Source: an uncultured Ruminococcus sp. (GTDB taxonomy: Bacteria; Bacillota; Clostridia; Lachnospirales; Lachnospiraceae). From it: a stretch of 7,743 bases of DNA. Made by a program: the position numbers and the translations under genes. Positions 3,005 to 5,633 of the stretch are shown here, in pieces. The DNA is taken from NCBI GenBank assembly GCA_900555215.1, contig USKR01000046.1, positions 1 through 7,743 on the forward strand. Direction: 5' to 3'. Positions within the stretch are counted from its first letter, which is position 1. Each line of letters begins with the position of its first letter. Under the pieces are notes generated by a model that searched no databases, was not told the origin of the DNA, and saw nothing but the letters and a program-made list of their open reading frames with translations.

Positions 3005-3077
3005 GCGCGATTAGCTCAGTTGGTAGAGCACCTGACTCTTAATCAGGGTGTCCAGGGTTCGAACCCCTGATCGCGCA
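3005..3077 (+). tRNA. tRNA-Lys (anticodon CUU)
   Basis: A complete 73-nt cloverleaf. The acceptor stem GCGCGAT (3005-3011) pairs with ATCGCGC (3070-3076), and A3077 is the discriminator base. The D arm is GCTC-AGTTGGTA-GAGC. The anticodon stem CCTGA/TCAGG encloses the loop CTCTTAA, giving anticodon CTT at 3038-3040, which reads the lysine codon AAG. The T arm has the usual GGTTCGAACCC core. The 3' CCA is not encoded (CTT follows), so it must be added by tRNA nucleotidyltransferase. No cognate UUU lysine tRNA or other tRNA is nearby. The gene has its own promoter and terminator. Confidence 0.97.
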
Positions 3078-3082
3078 CTTAG

Positions 3083-3132
3083 AAATCGCTGTTTTTGCGG
3101 ACATTGCGAGCCGCGGGGACGGCGATTTTTTT
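3083..3132 (+). terminator. Intrinsic terminator of tRNA-Lys
   Basis: Arms 3083-3100 and 3111-3128 form an uninterrupted 18-bp RNA stem (AAATCGC...TGCGG with CCGCG...GCGATTT), in which five pairs are G-U wobbles. The loop is the 10 nt at 3101-3110, and a run of seven T ends at 3132. It begins 6 nt after the tRNA. Because of the wobbles it is a good hairpin only when transcribed on the plus strand. Confidence 0.85.
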
Positions 3133-3138
3133 CGTGAA

Positions 3139-3278
3139 GCAATGAGCAGCGCGGAAAAATAAAAGGATGGTCCCAGGGAAATGCAAGCACTTCCCTGGGA
3201 CCATCCTTCTTATTTTCCATGCGGCGAATGCCGCGACCGAGATGAAGCGGAGCGGAATCGAGGTGCGCTGCTCATTGC
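3139..3278. repeat. 140-bp nested inverted-repeat element, predicted four-way-junction fold
   Basis: Four sets of complementary arms nest without crossing. P1: GCAATGAGCAGCGC (3139-3152) with its perfect complement at 3265-3278, 14 bp. P2: 3153-3218, with an uninterrupted 18-bp core (3163-3180 with 3191-3208) and a 10-nt loop; a flanking GGAAAA/TTTTCC part adds up to 9 bp with single-base bulges. P3: GCGGC-GAAT-GCCGC (3221-3234). P4: ACCGAGAT (3236-3243) with ATCGAGGT (3257-3264), six Watson-Crick pairs around two adjacent G-A oppositions. Only 3 nt (3219, 3220, 3235) lie unpaired at the junction. No target-site duplication or coding frame is evident. It could be a structured RNA, a cruciform-forming repeat family, or simply a very elaborate convergent terminator. 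The arms are seen directly; the fold is inferred. Confidence 0.7.
3153..3218 (-). terminator. Probable terminator of the hydroxyacid dehydrogenase gene (usable in both directions)
   Basis: The long P2 hairpin of the surrounding element: an 18-bp perfect GC-containing stem (AAGGATGGTCCCAGGGAA and complement) around a 10-nt loop. Read on the minus strand, the stem is followed by TTTTATTTTT, a good U-tract, about 80 nt past the dehydrogenase stop codon. On the plus strand the tail CTTCTTATTTT is weaker, but it could back up the tRNA terminator. Confidence 0.7.
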
Positions 3279-3285
3279 GGCCGTC

Positions 3286-4224
3286 TTAACGTGCCTCCAT
3301 AAATTCCTCTATCTGTCCCGCGATGATCTTCATCAGCCGCTGCCTGGCTTCGATCGTTGCCCAGGCGATGTGCGGTGTGATGAAAAGCCTGTCCTTATCT
3401 TTTACATTTAACAGCGGGCTGTCCATTGCCATAGGCTCCACGGAGAGTACGTCCAGACCGGCCGCCCTGATCTCGCCTGCATTCAGGGCATCGGCAAGGT
3501 CTGCTTCATTGATGATAGGCCCTCGCCCCAGATTCAGGAGGATAGCGTCAGATTTCATTTTGCAGAAAGCATCTTTGTCCATCAGCCCTTCTGTGTATTC
3601 GTTGAGCGGAGCGTGGATGGACAGGATATCAGACTCTGACAGCAGAGTATCCAGATCCACCTGGTGATACCCTTCCTGAGCGGGAGCGCCGGATGCGGAG
3701 TAGTAAATGACCCTGGCCCCGAAAAGCCCTGCGATATCCGCTACACGGCGGCCGATCGCGCCCAGGCCGAGGATCCCCCATGTCATGCCGTTGAGTTCGT
3801 GGAACGTGCGGGCAAAATGGGTAAAGATCCGATCGTTAATGTAGCTGCCGCTTTTGACGTAATCATCATAATAGCGAAGATTTTCCATTAAATAAAAGAG
3901 CATGGCAAAGGTGTGCTGCGCCACGGACTCCGTGGAGTACCCTGCCACATTGCGCCATTCGATCCCGCGTTCCGCGAGATAGTCTTTGTCAAGATTATTC
4001 GTGCCGGTTGCAGTCACGCAGACGAGTTTCAGATTTTTGGCATCCGCGATCGTCTGTCTGTTGACCAGTACTTTGTTCACGACCAGGACATCAGCGTCTG
4101 TGACCCGTGCAGGCGCTTCTTCCGAAGAAGTGAAGGGATATCTGACGACCTCCCCGAGCTGTTCGAACTGTGAGTAATCAATGTCATCGCCAAGGGTGCT
4201 GGCGTCTAAAAATACGATTTTCAT
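3286..4224 (-). CDS. D-2-hydroxyacid dehydrogenase (glycerate dehydrogenase/hydroxypyruvate reductase-like)
   Basis: A 312-residue cytoplasmic NAD(P)-dependent oxidoreductase of the D-isomer-specific 2-hydroxyacid dehydrogenase family, which interconverts 2-ketoacids and D-2-hydroxyacids. The catalytic triad is intact: Arg234 (NLGRGP), Glu263 (SVEP) and His285 (TPHIAW). The Rossmann motif is GLGAIG (153-158). The residue that normally selects NAD, an Asp at the end of the second strand about 18 residues after the last Gly, is Ser176 here (VIYYSASG), so NADP use is possible. Substrate-loop features (TATGTNN at 71-77, the GYSTESVAQHTFAM helix at 95-108) fit the glycerate/hydroxypyruvate branch better than D-lactate dehydrogenase or SerA; there is no C-terminal ACT domain. 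AGGAGG lies 11 nt before the ATG. It is a single-gene unit, convergent with tRNA-Lys and divergent from the zinc-ribbon gene. The exact substrate cannot be read from sequence alone. Confidence 0.9.
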   Translation of the reverse strand: MKIVFLDASTLGDDIDYSQFEQLGEVVRYPFTSSEEAPARVTDADVLVVNKVLVNRQTIADAKNLKLVCVTATGTNNLDKDYLAERGIEWRNVAGYSTESVAQHTFAMLFYLMENLRYYDDYVKSGSYINDRIFTHFARTFHELNGMTWGILGLGAIGRRVADIAGLFGARVIYYSASGAPAQEGYHQVDLDTLLSESDILSIHAPLNEYTEGLMDKDAFCKMKSDAILLNLGRGPIINEADLADALNAGEIRAAGLDVLSVEPMAMDSPLLNVKDKDRLFITPHIAWATIEARQRLMKIIAGQIEEFMEAR

Positions 4225-4392: not shown

Positions 4393-4890
4393 ATGAGCGG
4401 ATTTTTTTCACATTCCAGCAGCAGAAGAAGATATCCCGATCCGAATATGGGCGGAGCGCATTACAGGAGAAAAGGTCTGTTTGGGATGCTTTCCGGTCTG
4501 GGAAGCGGATTCAGCTCCCGGAGCTCCCGGGGACACTATGGTCAGGGGTATCCGAACCAGGGATATCCAAACCAGGGGTATCCGAACCAGGGATATCCGA
4601 ACCAGGGATACCCAAATCAGGGATATCCGAACCAGGGATACCCAAACCAGGGATATCCAAATCAGGGATATCCGGATCCGGGCCAGGGGGGATTCCAGCC
4701 GACAGCCCCGGCAGCGGGCGGCCAGGCAGTGTGCCCGAAGTGCGGCGCTTCTGTCCCGGCAGGTTCCAGGTTCTGTCTCTCCTGCGGGGAGAAGATGGAG
4801 ACCAATGCATCATTCTGCCCGAACTGCGGGAGACCGCTCCCGGCAGGAGCTAAGTTCTGTTCAGAGTGCGGCGCGCCGGTACAGAGATGA
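4393..4890 (+). CDS. Double zinc-ribbon protein with GYPNQ pentapeptide array
   Basis: A 165-residue protein with three parts. Residues 1-50 are basic and Ser/Arg/Gly-rich (RRRYPDP, YRRKGLFGMLSGLGSGF). Residues 52-96 are nine pentapeptides, eight exact GYPNQ and a final GYPDP, surely disordered and similar in style to the Gly/Tyr/Pro/Gln tails of adhesive or phase-separating proteins. After a Gly/Pro/Ala linker come two zinc ribbons of the CxxC-10-CxxC type: Cys114/117/128/131 and Cys142/145/156/159, the second written CPNCGRPLPAGAKFCSECG. Such ribbons usually mediate protein or nucleic-acid contacts. There is no signal peptide or membrane helix. AGGAGG sits 9 nt before the ATG. The stop overlaps the start of the kinase-like gene (ATGA), which suggests the two products work together, perhaps with this one as scaffold or substrate. 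That role is inference. Confidence 0.85.
   Translation: MSGFFSHSSSRRRYPDPNMGGAHYRRKGLFGMLSGLGSGFSSRSSRGHYGQGYPNQGYPNQGYPNQGYPNQGYPNQGYPNQGYPNQGYPNQGYPDPGQGGFQPTAPAAGGQAVCPKCGASVPAGSRFCLSCGEKMETNASFCPNCGRPLPAGAKFCSECGAPVQR
4546..4680 (+). repeat. 15-bp in-frame tandem repeat, nine units
   Basis: Nine contiguous 15-bp units of consensus GGATATCCRAAYCAG. Eight encode GYPNQ and the last encodes GYPDP. Differences among units are almost all at third codon positions (GGA/GGG, TAT/TAC, CCA/CCG, AAC/AAT), so the peptide is kept while the DNA drifts. Copy number changes would preserve the frame. All three plus frames and one minus frame stay open through it, which creates spurious ORFs. Confidence 0.95.
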
Positions 4891-5633
4891 TATGTCTGAA
4901 GCGGCGCGGGGGCCGAAGCAGTAAGATCGGAGAGTACACCGTGGCATCCCGCATAGGCAGCGGACGCTACGGTGTCTGCTTTCTTGCGCATGGTCCGACA
5001 GGAAAAACTGTCGTTCTGAAAAGATTCCGGCCCAGAATGCTCCGGAAGAACCAGCAGCAGAACCATTATGAGGCGGTCATCCTGTCCGGCCTGAGCCATC
5101 CGGCCGTCCCGGAGCTTCTGGGAGTGATCAACTGCCGGCAGGGTTACTATTATGTCCTTGAGTTTAAGCAAGGGGCTACGTTGGAAGAGTGGCTTTTTAA
5201 GAGGAGAAAAATTTTTTCTCACGAAGAAATATACAGGATCGGGACACAGCTCTTTGGCGTTCTGGAATATCTTCACAGCAGGAATGTGGTGCACGGAGAC
5301 ATCAGCGTGTCGAATCTGACATATGACGGGGAGAAGCTCGCTCTGCTGGACTTCGGCCTTGCCAGATATGCGGATGGGAAGAACATCAGATTCAGCCTCG
5401 ACTATGCGCGGACGGCGAATGTTCTGATCTATCTGCTCTATTCGGGATATTCCGGAAGAGGAGACCGCCCGTGGCATGAGGAACTGGATCTTTCGGAAGG
5501 ACAGAGAGGATTTCTGCGCAGGATGCTGGAACAGGAGGAAGCATTTCGGGATACAGAGGAGGCGGCAGAAACATTTCAAAAATATTTTTCCCTTCAAGGA
5601 GGGAATGAAAAAAAGCAGCGTGTTGAAGAATAA
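4887..5633 (+). CDS. Minimal Ser/Thr protein kinase-like protein (HGD type)
   Basis: A 248-residue single kinase domain without membrane or sensor parts. Visible motifs: Gly loop IGSGRYGV at 23-30, the ATP-anchoring Lys45 (VVLKRF), probable helix-C Glu62 (NHYEAVIL), catalytic loop HGDISVSN at 136-143 (Asp138, Asn143), and DFGLAR at 155-160. The usual HRD Arg is Gly, as in Bud32- and small-molecule-type kinases. Only about 15 residues separate DFG from the helix-F-like DYARTANVLIYLL (172-184), so the activation loop and APE motif are missing, and the C-lobe is short. The start at 4887 overlaps the upstream stop (ATGA), which favours coupled translation; a GTG at 4866 would add seven residues, and neither has a strong ribosome binding site. 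It is probably catalytically competent and does not need loop phosphorylation, but the substrate is unknown. The zinc-ribbon partner is the natural candidate. Confidence 0.82.
   Translation: MICLKRRGGRSSKIGEYTVASRIGSGRYGVCFLAHGPTGKTVVLKRFRPRMLRKNQQQNHYEAVILSGLSHPAVPELLGVINCRQGYYYVLEFKQGATLEEWLFKRRKIFSHEEIYRIGTQLFGVLEYLHSRNVVHGDISVSNLTYDGEKLALLDFGLARYADGKNIRFSLDYARTANVLIYLLYSGYSGRGDRPWHEELDLSEGQRGFLRRMLEQEEAFRDTEEAAETFQKYFSLQGGNEKKQRVEE

Follow-up and report, generated by a model that had tools for sequence, protein, structure and literature searches.

The stretch of DNA analysed here, called the window, comprises 7,743 nucleotides of a contig from an uncultured Ruminococcus sp. of the family Lachnospiraceae. 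The element under study, at positions 3139-3278, is situated between a tRNA-Lys gene on the same strand and a convergent gene for a D-2-hydroxyacid dehydrogenase (Table 1), i.e. in the very setting claimed earlier from the letters and open reading frames of this DNA (the sequence-only reading). The other genes assigned in the window encode V-type ATPase C/AC39, a Methyltransf_4 protein (the gene being presumably trmB), a zinc-ribbon protein, a kinase-like protein and a YibE/F protein; the frames neighbouring V-type ATPase C/AC39 and one frame after YibE/F carry no assignment. As a separate observation, the gene at 4393-4890 codes for a short protein in which approximately eight YPNQG repeats precede zinc ribbons, and the kinase-like frame (4866-5633) begins within its 3' end.

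The tRNA-Lys gene has a terminator-like hairpin of its own, and the element is therefore probably not needed for its termination. The T run of this hairpin (TTTTTTT) abuts the 5' side of the element, and a pattern scan for terminators did not have the hairpin among its matches. In related species, too, a hairpin on the tRNA side is similarly laid out next to the gene for the dehydrogenase. It should be pointed out that this hairpin is long and apparently well kept in relatives, beyond the needs of an ordinary terminator.

Table 1 Coordinates of the element, its parts and its neighbours in the window
Feature	Position	Strand	Remark
tRNA-Lys (CTT)	3005-3078	+	gene upstream of the element, same strand
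Terminator-like hairpin 3' of tRNA-Lys	3083-3132	+	read from the sequence and detected as inverted repeat
5' lead CGTGAA	3133-3138	+	window form of (R)CGYGNAAGC, common in relatives
5' closing arm GCAATGAGCAGCGC	3139-3152	+	pairs with 3265-3278
Long hairpin arm	3153-3218	+	predicted fold; apex GCAAGC
Unpaired joint AT	3219-3220	+	within family CAUA / CAUG
Tetraloop hairpin GCGGC-GAAT-GCCGC	3221-3234	+	predicted fold
Unpaired G	3235	+	junction
Core helix ACCGAGAT...ATCGAGGT	3236-3264	+	tandem G.A oppositions 3239-3240 facing 3260-3261
Mini-hairpin GC-GGA-GC	3247-3253	+	inside the core helix
3' closing arm GCGCTGCTCATTGC	3265-3278	+	pairs with 3139-3152
D-2-hydroxyacid dehydrogenase	3286-4224	-	Pfam 2-Hacid_dh; convergent to the element

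Predicted fold of the window copy

The element had been described as a four-way junction closed by a perfect 14-bp stem, and the predicted fold bears this out, with 100% complementarity of the closing arms and three unpaired nucleotides at the junction. The two adjacent G-A oppositions described at the same time are present as well, as G3239.A3261 and A3240.G3260. The minimum free energy (MFE) of the plus-strand RNA is -87 kcal/mol (z -10.4) and that of the minus strand -89.2 (z -12.4), none of 200 dinucleotide shuffles being as low in either case; as the minus strand thus has a marginally lower value, the energy of the window copy alone provides no argument for the plus strand. The long hairpin of this copy is terminator-like on the minus strand only, so that a transcript of the dehydrogenase gene would, as judged from its sequence, meet it as a terminator with the tail TTTTATTTTTC.

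With regard to the long arm, the window copy is an exception within the family, its apex being GCAAGC and reading as inverted, whereas the other 10 copies beside the dehydrogenase gene have GCTCGC, GCTTGC or GCTTGT. Compared with its counterpart in locus L001 (6166-6230, minus strand), the window hairpin appears flipped in place.

At the gathering threshold, Rfam 15 gave no match to the element in the window or in 18 copy-bearing loci, and the matches outside the element in the same set were only tRNAs and one TwoAYGGAY. A permissive search returned 44 sub-threshold matches on the long hairpin, mostly to miRNA models. Searches of the open-access literature, one of them by a core sequence word, yielded no paper recognisable as describing the element.

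Distribution of the element

Comparison of genomes establishes the element, at the level of sequence, as one copy of a dispersed and partly tandem family of approximately 130-nt intergenic elements in Lachnospiraceae. Starting from the dehydrogenase, 151 relatives were reached, and 80 of them were kept as loci (the best one, from Lachnoclostridium sp. An76, being 100% identical in amino acids); the downstream flank of the dehydrogenase gene was inspected in 44 of the 80, and BLAST was applied to all of them. A DNA search found 4-16 matches per genome in all eight related genomes, some of these representing the second strand of the palindrome. The first list contained 68 matches, 10 of which were dropped as chance by eye.

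A covariance model of the core, R1 (49 positions, 13 pairs), was used for wider scans, in which up to 20 candidates were scored per family genome and 15 per class genome; its E-values are rough, and the window core helix scores 73.2 bits with it. Matches were found in 130 of 299 sampled Lachnospiraceae genomes at E <= 1e-3 (117 at 1e-4) and in nine of 391 genomes from the class at E <= 1e-4, four of these nine (G001, G116, G188 and G269) belonging also to the family sample and five lying outside it. The idea of an intergenic repeat family, put forward earlier together with just such a model search in Lachnospiraceae, has thus held up.

Among the 20 genomes reached via named loci, 14 possess the element, the numbers of core matches being, for instance, 31 in Mediterraneibacter glycyrrhizinilyticus An427, 19 in M. 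catenae, 11 in Faecalicatena faecalis, six in Merdimonas faecis and three in Roseburia hominis An869. The remaining six—Butyrivibrio fibrisolvens 16/4, F. orotica, Drancourtella massiliensis, two Pseudobutyrivibrio and Lachnobacterium bovis—are without it, and it is therefore dispensable. The carrier genomes are in part drafts. Two copies searched against plasmid and phage records, and the exact core pattern against IMG/VR, gave no match in these collections, which sample Lachnospiraceae unevenly.

For the counts given below, identical sequences were taken once in the sets of 113, 114, 120, 125 and 126 copies, some loci overlapping one another (e.g. L184 and L253), and were left unmerged in the total of 182 core matches. 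Related sequences are treated as independent throughout, except in the values merged per site and in the GA count on distinct cores. Alignment A1 covers 33 of 50 distinct cores, and alignment A4 contains 67 of the 114 copies that have a closing stem; the 114-copy set used for folding and the 113-copy set used for placement were both pre-selected for that stem.

Family consensus and covariation

Read along the window plus strand, the consensus begins with the 5' lead AGCAAUGA, continues with a closing arm (GCAGUGC, GCCAUGC, GCCGUGC and others) and the long hairpin, the apex of which is frequently GCUUGC or GCUCGC, and passes through CAUA to the tetraloop hairpin, most commonly GGGC GNNN GCCC. 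Then come the core, ASS GA GAU GRA GC RNA GC GRA AUC GA SSU, and an arm matching the 5' closing arm, frequently followed by GG. Conservation within the family is strongest in the G.A core helix: of 128 distinct cores aligned to the model, 127 have GA on the two sides, while the surrounding pairs covary, the outer ones alternating between ACC/GGU, AGC/GCU and ACU/AGU; for the inner ones the alternatives are GAU/AUC, GAC/GUC and GUU/AAC. Where the stem of the mini-hairpin changes its length, it does so equally on either side (GC-GAA-GC, GCGC-GAA-GCGC). The closing arms form inverted repeats in 114 of 126 first copies, 12 being without a convincing closing stem. The four-way junction is present in the plus-strand MFE structure of 106 of 114 members (median of 4 unpaired nucleotides), as against 83 of their 114 reverse complements and 17 of 114 sequences obtained by one mononucleotide shuffle each.

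In the 128 distinct cores, aligned by fitting to the model, 93.3% of the cells pair and 11 of the 13 pairs exhibit double changes; none of 500 shuffles came up to the observed value on any of five measures, and the covariation score is 0.271 compared with at most 0.059 for slid partners. RNAalifold, applied to a MAFFT alignment of 67 full-length copies, found the closing stem, the long hairpin, the tetraloop hairpin and the G.A helix, 33 of the 35 consensus pairs having double changes; these include the closing helix, where columns 16-22 covary with 152-161.

The same can be seen beside a single gene. Among the 11 copies near the dehydrogenase gene, most of them lying between it and tRNA-Lys (with a longer gap in L030 and L035), 29 of 53 pairs have double changes, mostly in the long hairpin; the core is nearly constant, and the long hairpins of L009, L030, L035 and L038 are largely different yet still pair. 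No element was found beside the dehydrogenase gene in L027. As far as these sequences tell, long-term selection is acting on the fold near this gene. The sequence-only reading had held that a lack of compensatory changes among homologues, or conservation of the long hairpin alone, would reduce the element to a plain bidirectional terminator; compensatory changes are in fact abundant, and sequence conservation resides in the extra helices rather than in the long hairpin.

Strand preference

Exchanges that keep a pair in only one of the strands point to the plus strand as the folded one, since G-U exceeds A-C by 70:20 in alignment A4, where the composition is nearly balanced. In the long hairpins of 125 copies the corresponding plus-strand ratio is 159:52. 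This bias fits a folded plus-strand RNA, or folded single-stranded DNA. The MFE favours the plus strand in 119 of 125 copies; the energy difference was, however, dropped as the main evidence on the strand, because shuffles already yield -6.1 of the observed -9.1 kcal/mol through base composition. The plus-strand preference proposed earlier is accordingly upheld by the family counts and not by the energy of the window copy, and covariation together with the G-U excess speaks for a structured element, presumably acting as an RNA. The fold thus covaries on the sense strand of the neighbouring gene, as would a cis-acting structured RNA.

Placement beside genes and the long arm

Gene orientation was taken from simple scripted ORF calls rather than from annotation. 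Nearly half of the copies (54/113) start at most 30 nt from the stop codon that ends an open frame of 90 codons or more on the same strand, 40 of them only 0-9 nt from it, the value for random points being 4%. For 31 more, a run of at least four T ends within 30 nt upstream (random points, mostly inside genes, 16%), and the remaining 28 lack both features within that distance. An exact TATAAT was observed upstream of seven of the 113 copies, as a raw count, at a spacing of 16-17 nt that would place the start site at the 5' end of the element. When upstream frames of at least 150 codons are considered, 65 of 120 copies have one on the same strand and 21 on the opposite strand, none being found for 34; merging to 91 sites gives 45, 18 and 28, respectively.

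Pfam domains were sought in 30 of the 57 upstream frames and in 10 of the 48 downstream ones. The upstream genes so scanned are ordinary chromosomal ones, covering EF-Tu, ribosomal protein S9, NusG, subunits of V-ATPase and ATP synthase, rubrerythrin, an Fe-ADH/Aldedh fusion, an arginyl-type tRNA synthetase, transporters and others; none of the 30 frames matched a transposase model and one was without any Pfam match.

Concerning the long arm, the number of T in the 10 nt at its 3' end averages 3.25 in 36 copies with a same-strand gene within 150 nt and 5.35 in 31 convergent ones (p 1e-4). Many of these copies adjoin the same genes, and with one value per site the means become 3.55 (30 sites with a close same-strand gene) and 5.11 (19 convergent sites), p rising to 0.02. 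A T-rich tail is thus commoner at convergent ends than before close same-strand genes, and the window copy is terminator-like on the minus strand only. The site after tuf illustrates a possible exchange: the element is there in G001 and G002, shortened in G003 and rearranged in G004, whereas a terminator-like hairpin stands there in G005 and just a hairpin plus a T run in G007 (the search of this site in G006 and G008 gave no match). Judging by such sites, the arm can substitute for a terminator. On the other hand, the arm is kept without a T tail in L112, L117, L122 and L128, downstream of aldehyde dehydrogenase and with a same-strand gene following within approximately 45 nt; as tail-less arms are kept before close same-strand genes, the element is not merely a terminator. 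In the rearranged copy after tuf (L301, from G004), extra sequence splits the core helix and itself ends in a core-like manner, possibly as a nested insertion.

Tandem copies and dispersal

The recurring unit consists of the tetraloop hairpin, the G.A helix and the 3' closing arm; the long hairpin does not recur. In Lachnoclostridium sp. An76 the gap corresponding to that of the window element contains three tandem cores with a period of 78 bp, more tandem copies occur in L028 and L038, and the copy number in arrays beside one gene ranges from 1 to 4. Altogether 55 of the 182 core matches follow another one within 160 nt. Downstream copies of an array are frequently without the 5' arm and, in arrays of short period, without the long hairpin too, so that they cannot each form the junction; they have probably arisen by local duplication. 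A peptide-coding role of the array was rejected, since the periods break the frame (e.g. 75, 74 and 75 in L111; 67 in L113).

In the course of evolution, duplication has spread the family. Genome G151 carries nine places that share the two top core scores. The cores of seven of its copies (L145, L161, L163, L164, L215, L219 and L230) are nearly identical, and these copies also have a longer piece of flank in common, AAATTCCGGTTTGTGCG ... AACTTCACCAATAACGGACG; their upstream sequences differ, several lie at contig ends and L215 is without the long hairpin. These seven copies are, in sequence terms, the best sign of recent dispersal. An Rfam match to TwoAYGGAY RNA (113 bits; L219, 258-425, plus strand) lies about 120 nt downstream of a G151 copy, on the opposite strand.

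Signs of a transposition mechanism were looked for in the flanks and in the genomes. Target-site duplications near the dehydrogenase gene, plausible by eye, were at chance level in a systematic test: the longest word shared by the two flanks averages 4.88, compared with 4.64 for swapped flanks (112 copies). The copies thus have terminal inverted repeats (in 114/126), as a MITE would, and flank duplication not above chance. No Y1 transposase (PF01797), the partner to be expected from a REP/RAYT system, was matched in G290 (nearly one contig), G107 or G295 (both drafts, maybe incomplete), with 13-20 core matches each. Similarly, no reverse transcriptase (RT; PF00078) was matched in G703, with its 20 core matches, or in G295, with its 13, and G093 had one only below the cut-off, this domain being present in the other seven element-bearing genomes searched and in all six element-free ones. 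Across the 16 genomes searched, neither enzyme showed a link with the element.

Possible role of the element

The best reading of these sequences is that of a cis-acting structured RNA at transcript ends, similar to REP, ERIC and BOX in habit; membership in those families is not claimed. More specifically, the plus strand would be transcribed and fold as the four-way junction, likely capping the upstream transcript at its untranslated end, and one of the arms would probably act as a terminator wherever termination is required; we hold this tentatively, at close to an even chance. After transcription of the upstream gene, the 5' arm and the long hairpin would emerge just past the stop codon. 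At the end of a unit the U-tailed long arm would halt transcription; elsewhere transcription would continue and the four-way junction would close. Such a compact closed fold beside the stop codon might keep 3'-5' decay away from the upstream message or determine the ratio of neighbouring genes; that the junction protects the message from exonucleases is something we infer by analogy, the BOX repeats at 3' ends of operons having been proposed to impede 3'-5' exonucleases (PMC3049150). The near-invariance of the core suggests that it is bound by a partner, a protein or a nuclease. In copies of the terminator type the core comes after the terminator arm, and only read-through would yield it, or else transcription of the other strand from a convergent gene. 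Against a transcript-end role stand two features of the window itself, namely the terminator-like hairpin before the element and the slightly more stable minus-strand fold. In the family it is opposed by the 28 of 113 copies away from both a stop codon and a T run, the 21 of 120 with the upstream frame on the other strand, the 12 of 126 lacking a convincing closing stem, the incomplete downstream copies of arrays, the six of 20 genomes devoid of the element and the rise of p for the arm tail after merging. A stabilising effect, in turn, would have to be reconciled with known repeats that act otherwise, BIMEs being able to attenuate downstream genes and ERICs to destabilise transcripts or trigger their cleavage (PMC3049150).

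The element might instead be a small mobile repeat of the selfish kind, comparable to a MITE or REP, the single-stranded DNA or RNA fold of which is read by a transposase or another enzyme and for which gene ends are simply harmless places of insertion. This is possible, if less likely than not. It would explain copies dispersed beside unrelated chromosomal genes, the G151 copies with their differing upstream flanks, and the presence, decay and absence of the element at the tuf site among related genomes, and the strand bias, too, fits folded single-stranded DNA. It is opposed by flank words at chance level, by carriers of 13-20 core matches without a Y1 or an RT match, and by the blank searches of plasmid, phage and IMG/VR records, uneven as their sampling of Lachnospiraceae is; moreover, copies near one gene have been kept with compensatory changes and a nearly constant core. 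Concerning the tandem amplification and the inverted hairpin of the window, both could be accounted for by a DNA cruciform or recombination site, in line with arrays of one to four copies beside the same gene. A site acting as a pure duplex has, however, no strand preference, and both the 70:20 excess of G-U over A-C and the placement of copies beside same-strand stop codons disfavour this part of the sequence-only reading and make the cruciform highly improbable.

An ordinary bidirectional terminator with chance embellishment would agree with the terminator-like minus strand of the window and with the hairpins that occupy the place of the element after tuf in G005 and G007. The conserved part consists, however, of the non-terminator helices, the closing stem covaries and the tail-less long arm persists in the four loci after aldehyde dehydrogenase, all of which renders this explanation very unlikely. 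There is scarcely more to be expected of a small gene for a trans-acting RNA, composed of promoter, element and terminator. The seven copies preceded by TATAAT might be taken for it, but they are a small subset, most copies adjoining a stop codon or a T run, and five of the seven have a same-strand frame starting within 100 nt downstream, which would better fit a 5' leader.

If the preferred reading of a structured RNA at transcript ends is taken further, the family could represent an RNA class spread throughout Lachnospiraceae, in which a standard junction module, with its G.A core read by a dedicated factor, sits on unrelated core genes and joins them into one post-transcriptional network. 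This extension is doubtful; were it true, the transcript ends and lifetimes of EF-Tu, ribosomal protein S9, NusG, V-ATPase, ATP synthase, rubrerythrin and tRNA-Lys would be set by it. To our knowledge, post-transcriptional control in Lachnospiraceae, major bacteria of the gut, has been little studied. The present analysis supplies a covariance model, ready for use, together with dozens of copies from genomes of a module that covaries strongly, is absent from Rfam 15 and is attached to core genes. If transcript ends or lifetimes are set by the element, it would constitute a regulatory layer of the whole family; if it is selfish, it would be a repeat of the chromosome that exploits the borders between genes while retaining a fold like that of an RNA. 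In both cases, orthologous sites that have or lack the element, such as the one after tuf, make it possible to test why structured interspersed repeats are kept by bacteria.

Comparison with known repeats and terminators

The ERIC (IRU) elements of Enterobacteriaceae are approximately 130 bp long and are not known to contain a repeated internal module. REP is a single hairpin of approximately 35 bp tied to RAYT (Y1) transposases, and REP and BIME are often located near stop codons. The element differs from the latter two by its length of about 130 nt, its four helices and the lack of any dependence on Y1 genes seen here; it is like them in being a dispersed intergenic palindrome with a proposed attenuating or stabilising influence on mRNA (for BIME, see PMC3049150). 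With ERIC it shares the habit of a structured intergenic repeat said to affect the stability of co-transcribed mRNA, and it is set apart by the phylum of its hosts and by the effect reported for ERIC, i.e. destabilisation or cleavage (PMC3049150), this comparison being one of descriptions.

The BOX elements of Streptococcus, with their module order boxA-boxB(n)-boxC, resemble the present family as short interspersed chromosomal repeats that have a predicted fold when transcribed and contain an internal module in a variable copy number (PMC3049150). They differ in their Streptococcus hosts and in the repeated module, which here is the 3' part (hairpin, G.A helix and 3' arm). The four-way junction with a terminator-like arm separates the two further, as judged from the description of BOX. 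Finally, the likeness to intrinsic terminators lies in the long arm, T-tailed at many convergent ends and occupying the place of a relative's terminator-like hairpin, whereas the difference lies in the three further helices, the conserved core and the tail-less copies before close same-strand genes.
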